The notes under the pieces were generated by a model, which worked only from the letters and a program-made list of their open reading frames with translations, did no database searches and was not told the origin of the DNA. 32,313 bases of DNA from Saprospiraceae bacterium (lineage in GTDB: Bacteria; Bacteroidota; Bacteroidia; Chitinophagales; Saprospiraceae), in the NCBI GenBank assembly GCA_021298575.1, contig JAJTFM010000032.1, positions 1 through 32,313 of the forward strand, written 5' to 3'. The first letter of the stretch is position 1; the number at the start of each line of letters is the position of its first letter. The position numbers and the translations under genes were made by a program. This document shows positions 17,417 through 28,123 of the stretch, piece after piece.

Positions 17417-17980
17417 TTATCTGAGGTTTCTTTTCCAGCGCCGGTACAGGTCTCGGTACTGGCGCCATTTGTTCTCGTCAGGTTCCACCGTGTGCAGTAC
17501 CGGACTTTCCTGCATGGCCTCTCCAATGTCGCTGTAGGCGCCTGCGGCCACGCCTGCAGCGTACGCAGCACCCGCAGCGCCGGTAGTGGATCTCAGTTCG
17601 ATACGGGTATGTGCCATGCTTGCCAGTGTCTGCGTGAAAACGTCCGACTGAAACAGGTTGTCGGCGCCCACCCGCAACACTTTGATCGGGACTTCCATTT
17701 CCCGCATGGCCTCGATGCCATACATGAACGAACAGGCAATGCCTTCCAGTATGGCTCGGTAAAAATGACGGGCCTCATGCCGGTTGAACTGTATGCCTGA
17801 AAAAGTGGCTCCCGGATTTTTATTGCCAAGTATGCGTTCGGCGCCGTTACCAAAAGGGTGTACCAGCAGTCCGTCGGAACCCGCCGGCACAGTGGCAGCC
17901 ATCTTTTCCAGCTCGTCGTAGGAATACGCCTGATGTCCGAATGATTGTCGCGCCCACCATCGGCTCGCTGCTGACGGCAT
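17417..17980 (-). CDS. xylB: xylulokinase, C-terminal part of a frameshifted gene
   Basis: C-terminal piece of an FGGY-family sugar kinase. In-frame family similarity begins at about WARQSFGHQAYSYDELEKMA (around base 17955), not at the apparent ATG at 17980. Then come VPAGSDGLLVHPFGNGAERI, RAILEGIACSFMYGIEAMRE, the ADP-binding RVGADNLFQSDVFTQTLASM, and RSTTGAAGAAYAAGVAAGAYS, all classic FGGY C-domain motifs; the piece ends normally. It continues the N-terminal piece at 17847-18785, but between the two about 35-50 residues of the standard protein are missing (the SRVNTFxHxNH and GVLLCxNGxGI stretch). The enzyme would not be functional unless this is a sequence or assembly error. xseB follows after 7 bases. 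Confidence 0.8.
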   Translation of the reverse strand: MPSAASRWWARQSFGHQAYSYDELEKMAATVPAGSDGLLVHPFGNGAERILGNKNPGATFSGIQFNRHEARHFYRAILEGIACSFMYGIEAMREMEVPIKVLRVGADNLFQSDVFTQTLASMAHTRIELRSTTGAAGAAYAAGVAAGAYSDIGEAMQESPVLHTVEPDENKWRQYRDLYRRWKRNLR

Positions 17981-18785
17981 AAACCACGCCAGAGGTGCCG
18001 CCGGTAGCAGCTACCTCTCCGGGTCTGAGTACGTTCAGAGCGAGGGCATTATTGGGCTGGTCGCCGGCTCTGTAACACACAGGGATACCGGCAGGAAGGC
18101 CTATCTCTTCACAGGCTTTTCCGGAGAGCACTCCCTGTCTGGAAAAAACCGGCACTATATCCGGCAAAATATCATCGGGAAAACCGAAATAACGCATCAC
18201 TTCGGTAGCTACTTTTTCCTTCTGAAAGTCCCAGAGAATTCCTTCGGAGAGCCCGGTGATGGTAGTCGCCATTTCTCCGGTCATTCGGTAGGCGATATAG
18301 TCGCCCGGAAGCATGATTTTGTATATTTTCTCAAAAGTACGCGGCTGCCATTGTTTCACCCATGCCAGTTTGGAGGCGGTGAAATTGCCCGGTGAGTTCA
18401 GGTAGTGATTGAGGCAGTACGCTTCGCCGATGGTCTCAAACGCATTTTGACCCTGTGCGACGGCGCGACTGTCGCACCAGATAATCGCCGGCCGCAGAAC
18501 CTGTCCGTCCTTGTCAACGCAAACCAGTCCGTGCATCTGATAGCCGATGCCGATACCGCCGATATCGCCTGCACGTGCGCCCGTTTGCGCGAGCAACTTC
18601 CGCGTAGCTTCACAGACTGCCCGCCACCAGTCCCCGGGATCCTGCTCCGCATAGTCGGCAGAGGGCGAGGAAATAGGCATTTCAGTTTCAGGATGCCGGG
18701 TTATACCCAGCACATGGCCGGTGCTAGTATCCACCAGCGCCGCCTTTACAGAAGAAGAACCAATGTCAAAACCGAGAAGAAGCAT
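17847..18785 (-). CDS. xylB: xylulokinase, N-terminal part of a frameshifted gene
   Basis: N-terminal piece of an FGGY kinase, which phosphorylates D-xylulose with ATP to feed the pentose phosphate pathway. Motifs: phosphate-binding LLLGFDIGSSSVKAALVD (D7, G9), the substrate motif GYQMHGLV (M84-H85-G86, the MHG of xylulokinases), IIWCDSRA, LPGDYIAYRMTGE, SEGILWDF, and the catalytic base D242 in YRAGDQPNNAL, then ATGGTSGVVYAVSSEP. Family similarity stops at about residue 276 (near base 17958); the remaining roughly 35 residues are out-of-frame. The MHG motif favours xylulokinase over other FGGY kinases. The start ATG at 18785 places the first motif at the N-terminus as usual. No xylose isomerase gene is adjacent. 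Confidence 0.8.
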   Translation of the reverse strand: MLLLGFDIGSSSVKAALVDTSTGHVLGITRHPETEMPISSPSADYAEQDPGDWWRAVCEATRKLLAQTGARAGDIGGIGIGYQMHGLVCVDKDGQVLRPAIIWCDSRAVAQGQNAFETIGEAYCLNHYLNSPGNFTASKLAWVKQWQPRTFEKIYKIMLPGDYIAYRMTGEMATTITGLSEGILWDFQKEKVATEVMRYFGFPDDILPDIVPVFSRQGVLSGKACEEIGLPAGIPVCYRAGDQPNNALALNVLRPGEVAATGGTSGVVYAVSSEPMVGATIIRTSGVFLRRAGKDGCHCAGGFRRTAGTPFW

Positions 18786-18797: not shown

Positions 18798-18880
18798 GTA
18801 AAATATGTGTAAAATACAGTTTGTTTCAATTTTTTGCCCTGTTTTGCGTTTAATCTTCTGATTGTGGCCGTTTTTCTCTA

Positions 18881-18888
18881 TAATTTTG
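18881..18888 (+). promoter_or_regulatory. Bacteroidota -7 box before the SprB-repeat/OmpA gene
   Basis: TAATTTTG followed by C matches TAnnTTTG, 19 bases before the ATG at 18908. A TTG 16 bases upstream of it is too close for a standard -33 element. Confidence 0.55.
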
Positions 18889-18907: not shown

Positions 18908-21900
18908 ATGACTATTTCAAGCAATCAGCCAATGTCTATATCTCGTTCTGTATTTCAGAAACACTTTTTCCTGCTGTCGTTTCTTTCGGTAGCAGTTTCT
19001 TCTTTTGCTCAAAAGGCGGGTCTGGAGGTGACGCGCTGCAGCGCCATTGACCGCTCGGTGGGTGTGGTGAATGTCATGGCTGACTTCACTGGTCATCGGT
19101 ATGCCGCCAATAAAAAAGGTGTTTTTCAGGTGAAGGCCAACGATCTGGCTACACCCGTCCCGGTAGAGCCCGGTACAATGAACGTGATGTCTTTCAGGGG
19201 CGGTAATGCCAATTATGCCTGGCCGGTTGAAAAATTCAAAGAACAGGTAACTACCCCCTGTACGGTCACAGCTGCCTGGTACGATCTGAAAACCCAGATG
19301 CTTTGGCTCGGTACTGATGAGGCCGGACTCATACAGTTTGCCACGCAGCCCGAGTTCAAAATGCTGCAGCAGTATCTGCCAGTGAACTCCAAACTCAAAT
19401 CGCCCAATATCAGCACTATTTTTCAGGATGCCTCCGGCAGATTGTGGGTAGGCAATGAGGGCGGACTGATGTACGGTGCGCCCGGACGCTGGAAAGCGGC
19501 ACTCAGCGGGTTCACGGCTGAACGCGTGCGCGAGTTCAACGGTGTCATTTATGTGCTTTCAGAGGGTGTTATTTCCAAGGCCCCGGGCGGTGAAAAGTGG
19601 TCTGATCTGCCCGTTGAAGACAAGTATATTGACGGAGATATCCGCGACTTTGATATTGATCCGACCGGAAAACTCTGGCTGCTCTCCGGTATTGTTACCA
19701 GGCATGATATGACCGAAGATACGTACGATACCTTCGGCGGTTCCGAGTACTACACCAGTGAGTACGGTACTTGTCTTGCTGTTGATCAGGATGGCGCCGT
19801 ATGGATAGGAACCAGCGACAAGGGCCTTTACAGCATTGACAAGGCCTCCAATCTGGTGCTGAATCTTGAACTGGCTGCCCCTATCAGTTGCGAAGGAAAC
19901 GGCCGTGATGCAGCGCTTTCTGCGAAGGTAACCGGCGGTACACCGCCCTTCACATATAACTGGAATGCCGGACTGGCTGGTGACCGTCCCGCAGGCCTTG
20001 GGGCAGGTACTTATCTGGTAACGGTAACCGACAGCAAAGGTATCAGCCGGACAGCCGAAAGGGTGATTGCCGACAACAGACTCAAACTCAAGGTTCGCCA
20101 GAAAAAACCCGCCAGCTCGGCTACCGCTGCCGATGGTTCCGCCGAGGTGGATATCGCTACCAATGCCAGCGGTATCGTTATTACCTGGGATAATGGAGAA
20201 AACAAAGTACAAGCTACTCAACTTACTCCCGGTGAACATAAAGTAACGGTAGCTGACCCCAAAGGCTGTACCATGACGCTCACGGTTACAATTACGGTTC
20301 AGGGGCAGGCACTTCAGGCCGACCTGAAACTGGAGAGCAATATTCAGTGTGCCGGACAAACCGGATTGGTGACTGCCAAAGTTACCGGCGGTAAAACACC
20401 TTATCAGTATGCCTGGAGCAATCCTTCTTACAAGGGCGACAGGGCAACTGTTCAGGCGGGTGACTATTCGCTCACTGTCACTGACGCAGCCGGGGCCACT
20501 GTTACCGCAGAGATATCGGTGGGAGAACCGGCAGCACTCGGCCTCACCGCCGTCGTACAGGGCGTCGCATCTGCCGGCGGTGCCGACGGCAAGGCTATTG
20601 CACAGGCCAAGGGAGGTACCGGAATTTACACATTCAAGTGGGACAGCGGTGAAACCACTTTCAATGCCGTGAAACTGACAGAGGGCAATCATACGGTCAC
20701 CGCCACGGATGCCAATGGTTGTGTTGCCACTGCCACGGTAAAAATTGATGCCAAAGTGGATGCGTTTGCTGTTATTCTCCGGGAAGCACGCCCTGTTCGC
20801 TGCTATGGCGAAAAAACAAACCTGACGGTAGCTGCGGTAGGTGGCAAAACGCCCTACAAGGAGTACAAATGGTCGCCTGCCATCAAGTTGTCTGATGGCG
20901 TGGGCGCCGGTACATACTCGGTTACTGCTACAGATGCCGCCGGCACTACAGCTACTGCCACTATTGTGATAAAAGAACCAAAGAAACTCACAGTATCCAC
21001 GCTTCTCCAGTCGGGTACGAGTCCCGGCAAAGCTGATGGCAAAGCACTGGCAATTGTGGAAGGCGGAACAGGCTCCATGTTCTTCCGTTGGGACAACTCG
21101 GAGGCCACCGCAGCCACCAATGAACTGACACCCGGATTACACTATGTGACAGTCACCGATGAGAACGCCTGTACGCAAACTGCTTCAGTTTTTATTCCGG
21201 AAGGTATAGACCCGCTTAAGGTTACCCTGAATGAACGTGACCGGATCAAGTGCTCCGGTGGCAAAGCGGTGCTCGAAGTGAAGGCCTCCGGCGGCAAGGA
21301 ACCGTACCAGTATGTGTGGAGTGTGTCTTCAGTAAAGGGTACCAATCCTGCTGTTGCAGCCGGCGATTATATGCTTACCGTAACGGATGGATCCGGCACT
21401 ACCGTTTCTGCCAGCGTCAGTGTAAAACAGCCTGATCTGCTCGCGGCCACTGTCACAGTTAATGCTCCTGCAGGTATTGGCGCTTCCGATGGCAAGGCCA
21501 CTGTTGATATCACCGGTGGTACCACACCTTACAAAATCAGCTGGGATAACGGAGAAGATGCCCGCGAGGCATCCCGGCTTTCCGCTGGCAGGCATACGGT
21601 TTCTGTGACCGATGCCAATGCCTGCGCCGCCACGGCCACGGTCGTCGTCACTGAAAATATTCTCCCCTTGTCTGTGGTCGTGCGTGAAACGACACCGATA
21701 AAATGTCCGGGTGAGAAAGCGGGACTTGAGGTCAGCGTCACTGGAGGAAAGAGTCCGTTCCGGTATGTATGGAGTGTTCCCTCGCTCGCGGGTGAGCGCA
21801 CGAGCGCCCCTGCGGGAACGTACAGTGTTACCCTCACCGATGCCGCGGGTACCACCGCCTCGGCTGCGATCCAGGTCAGTCAGCCGGCTCAACTCGCTGT

Positions 21901-23863
21901 GGTGGCTACTGCCACCTCTCCGGCAGGCGTGGGTGCTTCCGATGGCAAGGCTACTGTTACTGCCACCGGAGGAACAGCGCCTTACACTTTCAGCTGGAGC
22001 AGCGGTGAAACTGGCGCTTCTGCCGCCAGATTGTCGGACGGCAAACATGGCGTCACGGCTACCGATGCCAATGGCTGTGCAGCTGCCGCCTCGCTGGAGA
22101 TAACAGAAAATATTCTGCCGCTTGCTACTTCCGTTTCCGAAACGGTCAATATCAAATGTGCCGGCCAAAAGGCATCACTGGAGGTGAAAATATCCGGAGG
22201 CAAGGGTCCGTTCAAATATGTCTGGAATACGCCGTCGGTTACAGGTGCCAGTCCGGGTGTGAGTGCAGGAGAATATACCGTGACCGTGACTGATGCGGTG
22301 GGAACCACTGCTTCCGCTTCCGTCAAAATAAATCAGCCAGCCCAGCTCACTATTTCGGCTTCGATGAAGAGTCCGGCCGGTATGGGCGCTGCCGATGGCA
22401 AGGCACTGGCAAAAATCAATGGCGGAACGGAGCCATATTCCATCATCTGGAGCAATGGTGAAACCACTGCGGAAGCCACTGCGCTGAAATCCGGGGCACA
22501 CACCGTCACGGTCACGGATGCCAACAGCTGCACTGCAGCCACCGGCCTCGGTATAGACGAAAATATCCCCCCGCTCACAATCAGTCTGGCTGAAATAGTA
22601 GCTCCCCGCTGTGCGGGTGATAAAACCACGCTGTCTGCCGATGTGAACGGCGGTAAAAAACCTTACAAGTTTGTCTGGAGCGATCCAGGTATTGAATCCG
22701 GGAAGCCCGTACTCCTGTCAACAGGCATGTACGGATTCACGGTCACGGATGCCACGGGAAATACGGCCAGCAGCTCTATCAGCGTGAAGATGCCCGCCCA
22801 GCTTTCCGCGGCTGTCGAGGTACAGGCACCGGCCAGCACCGGTGGCACCGACGGAAAAGCCACGCTGAAAGCCACGGGCGGAGTGCAGCCCTTTACATTC
22901 TCCTGGAGCAGCGGCGAAACAACCGCCGCCGCCGCCGCACTTCCCCCCGGAAAACAAAGTGTCACGGTCACCGATGCCAACGGATGCGTGGCTGCCACCA
23001 CTTTTGAAATTCGGGAGAATATACTGGTACTCACAGCTACCCTCACCGAGGAAAAATCCATCAAGTGCGCCGGTGACAAGGCTGCGCTTCGTGTGAAAGT
23101 AACCGGTGGCAAAGGGCCCTTCACTTACGCCTGGAACAATCCGGCAGCCACCGGCGATATACCGTCGGATCTCGATGCAGGAAACTACACCGTGACGGTC
23201 ACTGATGTCAAGGGCGCTACGAAAACAGCTTCGGTGACGCTGAAAGCCGTTACACCACTGGAGGTCACTCTTGTCCGCAATATTGGTGCAACCAGTGAGC
23301 GCAACAGTGATGGGAAGGCCGAGTTGAGCGTGAAAGGCGGTACGCCCAGGTACTCCATTATCTGGGATACCAAACAGACCGGATTGTCGGCTCCCAAACT
23401 GGCGCTCGGCAAACACAGCGTGACGGTCACCGATGCCAATGGATGTACAAAGACCATTGACTTCGAAACAGAAAAGCGCATACTTCCCGAACTCACCGGC
23501 TCTTTGGAAAATGGCCAGACGATCCGGATGCGCCTGCTGAATTTCGATACCGACAGTTCCACCATCAAGCCGGAAGCGCTGCCCATGCTCGACGAGTTAT
23601 TCGATTTCATGACAGAAAACAGTGCTGTGATGATTGAAATAGCCGGGCATACCAATAACCTGCCCAGCGATACTTTTGCCGACCAACTGTCAACCGCCCG
23701 TGCCAAAGCCGTGGCCGATTACCTGGCAGCCAAGGGGATAGATTCAAAGCGACTCGTCTATAAAGGATACGGGAAACGCCTGCCGCTGGTGCCGAATACA
23801 TCGGCGGAAGGCCGGAAGACAAACCAGCGGGTGGAGATAAAGATTTTGAAGGTGAAGGGGTAG
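18908..23863 (+). CDS. giant surface protein: beta-propeller, 16 SprB-like repeat modules, C-terminal OmpA domain
   Basis: 1651 residues. A signal peptide ends at SSFAQ (about 35); an in-frame ATG at 18932 is a possible alternative start. Residues about 40-320 contain propeller-type blades (MLWLGTDEAGLIQF, GRLWVGNEGGLMYG, GKLWLLSG, GAVWIGTSDKGLYSID), as in sensor-type propellers. Residues about 325-1525 are 16 SprB-like modules (GGKxPYxYxW ... AGxYxVTVTDA) in eight alternating A/B pairs with a period of about 151 residues. Residues about 1530-1651 are an OmpA-type domain (LNFDTDSSTIKPEALPMLD, IEIAGHTNN, LSTARAKAVADYL, GRKTNQRVEI) that should bind peptidoglycan. The HTD aspartate of the usual OmpA motif is Asn here; the LSxxRA arginine is kept. 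There is no T9SS tail, unlike SprB itself. It is probably outer-membrane or periplasm anchored. Roles in adhesion, envelope structure or gliding are possible but unproven. Confidence 0.88.
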   Translation: MTISSNQPMSISRSVFQKHFFLLSFLSVAVSSFAQKAGLEVTRCSAIDRSVGVVNVMADFTGHRYAANKKGVFQVKANDLATPVPVEPGTMNVMSFRGGNANYAWPVEKFKEQVTTPCTVTAAWYDLKTQMLWLGTDEAGLIQFATQPEFKMLQQYLPVNSKLKSPNISTIFQDASGRLWVGNEGGLMYGAPGRWKAALSGFTAERVREFNGVIYVLSEGVISKAPGGEKWSDLPVEDKYIDGDIRDFDIDPTGKLWLLSGIVTRHDMTEDTYDTFGGSEYYTSEYGTCLAVDQDGAVWIGTSDKGLYSIDKASNLVLNLELAAPISCEGNGRDAALSAKVTGGTPPFTYNWNAGLAGDRPAGLGAGTYLVTVTDSKGISRTAERVIADNRLKLKVRQKKPASSATAADGSAEVDIATNASGIVITWDNGENKVQATQLTPGEHKVTVADPKGCTMTLTVTITVQGQALQADLKLESNIQCAGQTGLVTAKVTGGKTPYQYAWSNPSYKGDRATVQAGDYSLTVTDAAGATVTAEISVGEPAALGLTAVVQGVASAGGADGKAIAQAKGGTGIYTFKWDSGETTFNAVKLTEGNHTVTATDANGCVATATVKIDAKVDAFAVILREARPVRCYGEKTNLTVAAVGGKTPYKEYKWSPAIKLSDGVGAGTYSVTATDAAGTTATATIVIKEPKKLTVSTLLQSGTSPGKADGKALAIVEGGTGSMFFRWDNSEATAATNELTPGLHYVTVTDENACTQTASVFIPEGIDPLKVTLNERDRIKCSGGKAVLEVKASGGKEPYQYVWSVSSVKGTNPAVAAGDYMLTVTDGSGTTVSASVSVKQPDLLAATVTVNAPAGIGASDGKATVDITGGTTPYKISWDNGEDAREASRLSAGRHTVSVTDANACAATATVVVTENILPLSVVVRETTPIKCPGEKAGLEVSVTGGKSPFRYVWSVPSLAGERTSAPAGTYSVTLTDAAGTTASAAIQVSQPAQLAVVATATSPAGVGASDGKATVTATGGTAPYTFSWSSGETGASAARLSDGKHGVTATDANGCAAAASLEITENILPLATSVSETVNIKCAGQKASLEVKISGGKGPFKYVWNTPSVTGASPGVSAGEYTVTVTDAVGTTASASVKINQPAQLTISASMKSPAGMGAADGKALAKINGGTEPYSIIWSNGETTAEATALKSGAHTVTVTDANSCTAATGLGIDENIPPLTISLAEIVAPRCAGDKTTLSADVNGGKKPYKFVWSDPGIESGKPVLLSTGMYGFTVTDATGNTASSSISVKMPAQLSAAVEVQAPASTGGTDGKATLKATGGVQPFTFSWSSGETTAAAAALPPGKQSVTVTDANGCVAATTFEIRENILVLTATLTEEKSIKCAGDKAALRVKVTGGKGPFTYAWNNPAATGDIPSDLDAGNYTVTVTDVKGATKTASVTLKAVTPLEVTLVRNIGATSERNSDGKAELSVKGGTPRYSIIWDTKQTGLSAPKLALGKHSVTVTDANGCTKTIDFETEKRILPELTGSLENGQTIRMRLLNFDTDSSTIKPEALPMLDELFDFMTENSAVMIEIAGHTNNLPSDTFADQLSTARAKAVADYLAAKGIDSKRLVYKGYGKRLPLVPNTSAEGRKTNQRVEIKILKVKG
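19876..23490 (+). repeat. eight tandem A/B SprB-like module pairs inside the giant surface protein gene
   Basis: Protein-level tandem repeat with a period of about 454 bases (151 residues). Each A module starts with a cysteine (I-K-C-x-G-x-K; codons 328, 481 ... 1387) and ends TDAxGTT without cysteine. Each B module starts without cysteine around (A/S)DGKA and ends TDANGC (codons 454 ... 1513). The middle pairs (about pairs 4-7) are the most alike, sharing the linker TENILPL. Confidence 0.85.
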
Positions 23864-26500: not shown

Positions 26501-28123
26501 ATGCGCCTGTTTTTTCCGCTGCTGTTTCTTCTGCCCCTGTTTTCTTCCGCTCAGGTGGGATTCACCTCCTCCAATCTGCCCATTGTTATTATAAACACCA
26601 ATGGTCAATATATACCCGATGAACCGAAGATTACAGCGCAGATGCAGGTGATTTATAACGGCCCCGGCGTGCGGAATAACCTGAGCGATCCGCCCCAGCA
26701 CTTTAATGGCCTGATTGGTATCGAGATGCGCGGAAGCTCATCCTCCGATTTGTCGGAAAAAAAGCCTTATGCAGTGGAAATACGCGATACCGAGGGCAAC
26801 GACCTGGATTTTCCGCTGCTTGGAATGCCGGAGGAGTCCGACTGGGCCTTTATTGCGCCTTACAGTGACAAAACCCTGTTGCGCGATGCACTTATTTACG
26901 AACTGGCCCGGCGTATTATGCCCTGGGCGCCCCGCACCCGTTTCGTAGAACTCATACTGAATGGCAAATATGAGGGCGTTTACACAGTTACCGAGCGTAT
27001 CAAACGCGGGAGTGACAGGGTTGATATTTCTAACCTGGAGCCCGACGAGACAACCGGAAATGACCTGACTGGCGGTTATATCGTCAAAATTGACAAAATA
27101 GAGGGTACCCCGTCGCCAAACTGGATTTCACCCTACCCGGTGGCAGCCAATGCCTGGCAGCGCACCACCTGGCAGCTCCACTACCCTAAAGCAGAGGACG
27201 CACAACCCGAGCAGGTGAACTATATACAGTCGTGGATTACACAATTTGAATCAGCTACTTTCGGACCCGATTTCGCTGATCCCGAAAAAGGCTTCAGGAA
27301 ATATGTTGACGTGCCGTCTTTCATTGATTTTACACTCCTCAATGAACTGGCCAAAAATGTGGATGGGTACCGTATCAGTACTTATCTGCACAAGGACCGC
27401 GATGATAAAGATCCTCTGCTCCACGCAGGCCCTGTATGGGATTTCAATATCGCTTTCGGAAATGCCAATTACTGTAACGCCGAGCAGCCTTATGGCTGGC
27501 AGATTATTGACATGAACTTCGTCTGCGGAGGCGATGGCTGGCTGAATCACTTCTTCTGGACCCGGATGTGGCAGGACCCAAAGTATAAAAAACAGCTTCG
27601 CGATCGCTGGTTCGAGTTGAGGAAAGATGCCCTGAGCGACGAAGCCATCTACGGGGTACTCGACTCGCTCAGTCAGGTGCTGCAGGAAAGTCAGTACCGG
27701 AATTTCCAGCGCTGGCCTATACTTAACGTCTGGATATGGCCCAACTACTATTGCTGTGGCTCCTACAACGGCCACATCAATTACCTGCGCGACTGGATCA
27801 GGCAGCGCCTGGCGTGGATGGACAGGGCCTCCGGGGAGCTGTATCTGGGTGAGTATGTCGAGAAAGACCGCTTTGATACGCAGATTTTCCCCAGTCCTTC
27901 ACTGGGGAAAGATATTAACTTCCGCATGTACCTGCACGCGCGCGACTTTGTACAGATCCGCATATACGACAGTACGGGCCGGTTCATTACAGAACTGGAG
28001 CACAGTCCGGAATTGCACGGCGAGAGTATTCTCAACTGGCCGAACAGCCTGAGCAAAGGTGTTTACTTCTACGAAGTTATTATTGACGGGAAAAAGGAGT
28101 CAGCCGGCCGGTTTGCAGTCTGA
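26501..28123 (+). CDS. CotH kinase-family secreted protein with T9SS-type C-terminus
   Basis: 540 residues. A signal peptide runs 1-18 (FFPLLFLLPLFSSAQ). CotH-fold proteins are atypical kinases; Bacillus CotH phosphorylates spore-coat proteins. Visible family motifs: IEMRGSSSS (74-82), YAVEIRD, SDKTLLRDALIYELAR (122-137), LNGKYEGVYTVTERIKRG (153-170), GGYIVKIDK (191-199), LNELAKNVDGYRISTYLHKD (280-299), and GPVWDFNIAFGN (310-321), where W-D-F/D-x-x-x-G is the metal-binding element. The last about 75 residues (IRIYDSTGRFITE, SKGVYFYEVIIDGKKESAGRF) form a T9SS sorting domain. In Bacteroidota such proteins are exported and often linked to surface matrix or adhesion, which is inference here. Monocistronic. 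Confidence 0.9.
   Translation: MRLFFPLLFLLPLFSSAQVGFTSSNLPIVIINTNGQYIPDEPKITAQMQVIYNGPGVRNNLSDPPQHFNGLIGIEMRGSSSSDLSEKKPYAVEIRDTEGNDLDFPLLGMPEESDWAFIAPYSDKTLLRDALIYELARRIMPWAPRTRFVELILNGKYEGVYTVTERIKRGSDRVDISNLEPDETTGNDLTGGYIVKIDKIEGTPSPNWISPYPVAANAWQRTTWQLHYPKAEDAQPEQVNYIQSWITQFESATFGPDFADPEKGFRKYVDVPSFIDFTLLNELAKNVDGYRISTYLHKDRDDKDPLLHAGPVWDFNIAFGNANYCNAEQPYGWQIIDMNFVCGGDGWLNHFFWTRMWQDPKYKKQLRDRWFELRKDALSDEAIYGVLDSLSQVLQESQYRNFQRWPILNVWIWPNYYCCGSYNGHINYLRDWIRQRLAWMDRASGELYLGEYVEKDRFDTQIFPSPSLGKDINFRMYLHARDFVQIRIYDSTGRFITELEHSPELHGESILNWPNSLSKGVYFYEVIIDGKKESAGRFAV

Follow-up and report, generated by a model that had tools for sequence, protein, structure and literature searches.

Two envelope proteins of Bacteroidota, PorE and CHU_0125, combine a propeller with an OmpA-like domain, as described in the consulted parts of three reports (PMC7192894, PMC5053529, PMC5891637). 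In the relevant part of one of these reports, loss of the T9SS protein PorE (PG1058) blocks the T9SS and leaves the barrier intact (PMC5053529). For CHU_0125, a Pal-like protein of Cytophaga hutchinsonii linked to outer-membrane integrity, the corresponding part of another describes leakiness of the outer membrane and increased vesicle numbers upon loss (PMC5891637). A literature search found no paper joining the SprB repeat with OmpA, nor SprB and OmpA with the term Saprospir. Most knowledge of SprB modules comes from exported adhesins. The protein described below shares tandem SprB modules (PF13573) with the T9SS-exported SprB-repeat proteins but differs from them in having no sorting tail and in having its cysteines divided over two modules.

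We analyzed a gene for a giant protein in a window of 32,313 nucleotides (the whole stretch of DNA studied; contig JAJTFM010000032.1 of the Saprospiraceae bacterium assembly GCA_021298575.1). Its frame runs without an internal stop in the translation of the window, and residue 9 (base 18932) is a Met in the same frame and thus an alternative start (Table 1). Upstream of the gene, at 18862-18888 (+), TTG is followed by TAATTTTG, which we take to resemble the Bacteroidota promoter consensus; this promoter-like element suggests that the gene is transcribed on its own. The gene is flanked by a divergent FGGY carbohydrate kinase upstream and a convergent frame downstream. The kinase (17417-18785, -) lies in two overlapping frames (17417-17980 and 17847-18785), either as a broken gene or through an assembly error, and forms a single frame in the nearest relative (L046, 5217-6827). 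A CotH kinase-like protein is encoded at 26501-28123 (+) and has a weak T9SS tail match of 24.8 bits, under the cut-off. No conserved gene neighbor naming a partner was found in the loci of 20 relatives; the sole common neighbor, the divergent FGGY kinase, occurs in 5 of these 20 loci, which are unequal in reach, and was rejected as an operon partner.

Table 1. Features of the propeller-SprB-OmpA gene in the window (residues are those of the encoded protein)
Feature	Position	Strand	Description
Whole gene	18908..23863	+	1651 aa + stop; single open frame
Signal peptide	18908..19009	+	Residues 1-34, read from sequence; cleavage probably before Q35
Reg_prop-type beta-propeller	19013..19867	+	Residues 36-320; Pfam Reg_prop, HTCS profile match, model and fold search
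Stalk pair 1 (A1-B1)	19847..20305	+	Residues 314-466; first few residues shared with the end of the propeller match
Stalk pair 2	20306..20758	+	Residues 467-617
Stalk pair 3	20759..21208	+	Residues 618-767
Stalk pair 4	21209..21661	+	Residues 768-918
Stalk pair 5	21662..22114	+	Residues 919-1069
Stalk pair 6	22115..22567	+	Residues 1070-1220
Stalk pair 7	22568..23023	+	Residues 1221-1372
Stalk pair 8	23024..23482	+	Residues 1373-1525
OmpA-like domain	23498..23860	+	Residues 1531-1651; Pfam OmpA; GHTN variant of the diaminopimelate pocket

The initial annotation of this locus, made from the sequence alone, had described a chimera of a sensor-like propeller, 16 SprB modules and an OmpA anchor, and had proposed domain searches, structure modeling and a survey of the architecture in Bacteroidota. 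All of these parts, including the propeller and the OmpA-like end, were recovered by profile search above the Pfam cut-offs: SprB (PF13573) with E 8e-71 and 233.8 bits (cut-off 28), OmpA (PF00691) with E 4e-18 and 65.9 bits over residues 1546-1639 (cut-off 27.2), and Reg_prop with E 2.6e-7. The module count was exact, since the stalk (residues 314-1525) consists of eight A-B pairs of 150-153 aa each. AlphaFold2 models of residues 36-617 (mean pLDDT 88.8, pTM 0.56) and 1221-1651 (mean pLDDT 89.6, pTM 0.56) likewise showed a propeller of ~25 strands, which by strand count corresponds to about six blades, together with Ig-like modules and the OmpA fold. With their low pTM and large rmsd, these models inform on the folds of the domains rather than on their orientations. 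In fold searches, the OmpA end matched OprF, Pal, and PorE, with TM scores, normalized by target, of 0.81 against OprF (5u1h) and 0.88 against Acinetobacter Pal (4g4v). The stalk matched five pieces of GhpA, the grappling hook protein of Aureispira sp. CCB-QB1, at ranks 1-5; the two differ in their ends, the sequence match is weak (E 0.018) and the rmsd is 9-11 over the chain, and single stalk pieces had no sequence match to solved structures at E<=0.001.

Profile and fold searches matched the propeller best to the periplasmic sensor domains of hybrid two-component systems (HTCS; BT4663, BT3049, and BT4673), with which it shares Reg_prop blades. Profile matches reached E 9e-34 for 4a2l and 2e-29 for 3v9f, and the fold search returned BT4673 and BT4663, with PorZ at rank 41. 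These matches would fit a soluble periplasmic sensor, whose propeller would bind a glycan as in HTCS and signal to a membrane partner. We consider such a role very improbable: the window protein has one short propeller, its Pfam families at E<=1 include no kinase or membrane-helix family, and Reg_prop blades also occur in PorZ and other non-sensors.

Comparison with the two described tethers placed the protein outside both families. Like PorE (NF052230), it is an exported envelope protein that carries both a propeller and, at the C-terminus, an OmpA-like domain, but it has a Reg_prop-type propeller, an SprB stalk, no lipobox and no membrane anchor at the propeller end, and TPR and CRD are absent from its Pfam families at E<=1. 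Membership in the PorE family was rejected on these missing domains and on a score of 62 bits against a cut-off of 600, confined to the OmpA part. CHU_0125 (NF053607) resembles it in joining a PD40 propeller to an OmpA-like domain; here, the score was 80 bits against a cut-off of 620. Identity with CHU_0125 was dropped, as that protein is described, in the part of the source consulted, with TPR and PD40 in place of Reg_prop and SprB.

The architecture itself proved to be widely conserved. The nearest species has a full-length copy with 91% identity, and the propeller profile matched in 38 of 42 genomes of the genus, at one place each (two matches being partial at contig ends), which together exceed what chance would give. 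Twenty relatives were selected among 36 genomes of the same genus for the usefulness of their contigs, and all encode both ends within a single frame, of 1043 to 1673 aa. Beyond the genus, scoring the best eight candidates per genome, we found propeller matches in 49 of 298 genomes of the order (47 of which belong to the same family as the window) and in 2 of 295 genomes of the class, both again within that family. The taxa most often named among the loci were Saprospiraceae, Lewinellaceae, Haliscomenobacter, and Phaeodactylibacter; one of the collections of homologous loci comprised 80 of 132 relatives' loci. One genome (G228; L167 and L176) has two copies, both with two modules, and is alone in this among the 49 matching genomes of the order. 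The architecture is also present in a record titled Thermoanaerobaculia (Acidobacteriota; L108), whose gene groups with Saprospiraceae rows and which may be a mislabeled assembly.

Among 64 loci with a strong propeller match, the frame continued into the OmpA domain at 49, met the end of the contig at 12 and ended within the stalk at 3 (L096, L124, and L147, the second with a run of unknown bases). A further 40 loci yielded both ends in 34 cases, a propeller without SprB and OmpA in 2, and no reach to OmpA in 4. The two propellers without SprB or OmpA are of the same type and come from another family within the order, in two genomes (L190, 1429-2952; L191, 313-1860); by eye, the sequence after the propeller in L190 resembles a von Willebrand A domain. 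Altogether, 84 frames with both ends were collected, 80 of them distinct, and all 80 show one and the same order of parts. The window protein is thus a real conserved envelope protein and no one-off chimera; what had looked chimeric is a protein family in which the ends are fixed and the stalk varies, having only two modules in 24 of the 80 members.

The number of stalk modules in the 80 homologues was 2 in 24 proteins, 4 in two, 6 in one, 7 in one, 8 in two, 10 in nine, 12 in 27, 14 in eight, and 16 in six. The count was therefore even in 79 of 80 proteins over a range of 2 to 16, and the odd one (7) has 34 masked residues. The long forms have ~76 residues per module between the ends and the two-module forms ~170 residues in all (a few up to 307), so that the stretch from propeller to OmpA ranges from ~170 to 1220 residues over the family and the reach of about 1200 residues named in the initial annotation is not a conserved property. 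On a tree built from the propeller and OmpA columns of 78 rows (leaving out L087 and L199), one branch (SH-aLRT 100) separates the two-module from the longer forms, and at least 23 changes of module count are needed. As odd counts were never met in complete data, the unit of change is the pair. We also compared 311 pairs from proteins with at least 4 pairs, leaving out matches of 85% identity or more. The best match was the first pair of another protein for all 51 first pairs and the last pair of another protein for 43 of 51 last pairs, and it lay inside the same protein for 31 of 209 inner pairs. This difference between end and inner pairs suggests that the stalk gains new pairs in its interior, with the caps at both ends fixed.

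The pair unit is also visible in the cysteines. The 16 stalk cysteines of the window protein (P0001), at residues 328 and 454, 481 and 605, 632 and 755, 782 and 906, 933 and 1057, 1084 and 1208, 1235 and 1360, and 1387 and 1513, strictly alternate, the first SprB Cys standing in A and the second in B. Across 78 homologues, only the first was present in 336 of 342 A modules and only the second in 334 of 342 B modules. Loss of cysteines within this family showed too little variation for a test of partners (among 342 pairs there were three apparent losses, and the proteins concerned were near-identical relatives), and the test was therefore moved to ordinary SprB arrays in other proteins of the lineage (40 loci, L210-L249; 656 modules scored).

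In these ordinary arrays, 621 of 656 modules have both cysteines, 17 and 18 have one or the other, and 0 have neither; as none of the 35 deficient modules lacks both, a disulfide inside each module, which we had expected at first, was not supported. For the first Cys of module n and the second Cys of module n+1, both were present in 505 cases, the first only in 0, the second only in 6, and neither in 3, and their joint loss was significant (Fisher P 3.7e-6, resting on three joint losses with six exceptions in rows related to one another). The third possible pairing gave P 0.23. Eight arrays start with a module that has the first Cys only, and inner breaks read as second only followed by first only. 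The losses fit a bond between the first Cys of module n and the second Cys of module n+1, and such bonding between neighbors may extend to SprB proteins in general. Applied to the window protein, this rule would make each A-B pair a closed array of two and leave the B-A joint unstapled; in the 24 two-module members, A1-B1 is the sole pairing possible within the stalk. Judged from titles, the literature search found nothing on disulfides in Ig-like SprB modules.

The remark in the initial annotation that a T9SS tail is missing was borne out. The 18 Pfam families at E<=1 and the 25 of 42 NCBIfam matches listed include no C-terminal sorting domain, and the best OmpA-type matches extend to residue 1646 of 1651, leaving no space for such a tail. 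A tail concealed by a frameshift was rejected in view of the 0 to 7 residues that follow the OmpA match in the 80 homologues (L199 leaves its contig at this point). The missing tail does not mean a missing T9SS, as Por_Secre_tail has 106 matches at E<=0.001 in the genome, several of them within the window. A hydrophobic stretch precedes the propeller in 79 of 80 homologues, and a loose lipobox pattern is absent from 78 of 80; in the window protein, no Cys ends the signal peptide and there is thus no lipoprotein signal. With a Sec signal peptide but neither lipobox nor barrel nor T9SS tail, the sequence suggests the periplasm as the first candidate location, and passage of the propeller over the outer membrane, implied where the initial annotation spoke of display, found no support.

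The alternative of a surface rod, whose stalk would cross the outer membrane through some channel and hold the propeller outside with the OmpA-like end on the wall, gains from stalk length. An SprB module is about 4 nm long, and 16 modules at this figure would span ~60 nm, beyond the length of the periplasm, which counts against a periplasmic tether. The nearest solved stalk folds, moreover, are the pieces of GhpA, which we take to be a cell-surface device. The lack of a barrel, lipobox or T9SS tail speaks against this alternative, as do the 24 of 80 members with two modules only, which would fit the periplasm, and we judge it distinctly unlikely.

The OmpA-like domain raises a separate question. 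In PorE, the side chains of Asp576, Asn584, and Arg591 hold the diaminopimelate of peptidoglycan, as given in the consulted part of the structural report (PMC7192894). Measured against these three contacts, all 80 homologues have Asn at the position of Asp576 and Cys (55) or Ala (25) at that of Asn584, and all retain the Arg. Among the 21 OmpA domains of the same genome, the Asp is kept in 15, and the GHTN motif occurs only in the window protein and in L069 (1462-2658, -), a protein of 398 aa with no further Pfam domain above the cut-off. For the peptidoglycan-binding end named in the initial annotation, the fold and profile therefore stand, while two of the three side-chain contacts described for PorE are replaced throughout the family. 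Peptidoglycan binding is likely from the modeled fold and has partial backing from the residues, and the two changed contacts may mean that it is weak or lost.

If so, the OmpA-like domain could dock a protein partner in place of peptidoglycan, and the protein would be a periplasmic scaffold and no wall tether. The replacement of GHTD by GHTN and of Asn by Ala or Cys in 80 of 80 homologues, together with the rarity of GHTN in a genome that keeps the Asp in most of its OmpA domains, would agree with this. However, all 80 retain the Arg, which contacts the carboxylate of diaminopimelate, the Asn could still supply a side-chain oxygen like that of Asp576 in PorE, and the OmpA domain is the most conserved end (61-98% identity across the 20 relatives, against 39-94% for the propeller); a scaffold thus appears unlikely to us.

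By its ends, and by analogy, the window protein would belong with the Bacteroidota envelope tethers. We give about an even chance to a periplasmic Saprospiraceae tether like PorE and CHU_0125, with a stalk of stapled pairs between a propeller head and an OmpA foot. In such a tether, Sec would export the protein into the periplasm, the C-terminal OmpA-like domain would hold the peptidoglycan side, and the N-terminal propeller would be the head that binds some partner or ligand. Head and foot would be connected by an articulated stalk, made of stapled pairs of Ig-like SprB modules: within a pair, a disulfide would link the Cys that follows the first strand of A to the one that precedes the last strand of B, the B-to-A joint would remain unstapled, and the pair would thereby be the unit duplicated or lost. 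In size and arrangement of parts, the short forms match a PorE-like tether; the long forms retain both ends and have further links. The 24 of 80 proteins that manage with two modules favor a function inside the envelope, and the tolerance of sixteen argues against a stalk that serves as a strict ruler between two layers. Points against the tether are the propeller end, which lacks the membrane anchor of PorE, the changed OmpA pocket, the missing partner gene among the neighbors and the weak sequence match to any solved stalk. Of the tether model first proposed for this locus, the envelope tether is retained as the likeliest role by the PorE/CHU_0125 analogy, and surface display is not. We regard as possible, if rather doubtful, a distinct class of tether whose length comes in quanta, with stapled Ig pairs as stiff links, B-A joints as hinges, links added between fixed end pairs, and a reach beyond the periplasm.

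In this family, near-universal in one genus, SprB modules form a stalk between tether-type ends. As a by-product, the cysteine data suggest a rule for SprB arrays, in which neighbors, rather than single modules, would be cross-linked. The even-number rule and the split cysteines together make a clear, testable proposal for the stiffening of such arrays, one that would also concern many of the phylum's large adhesins. Finally, the homologues provide a natural length series of 2 to 16 modules with the same ends, which would allow the effect of stalk length in the envelope to be asked.
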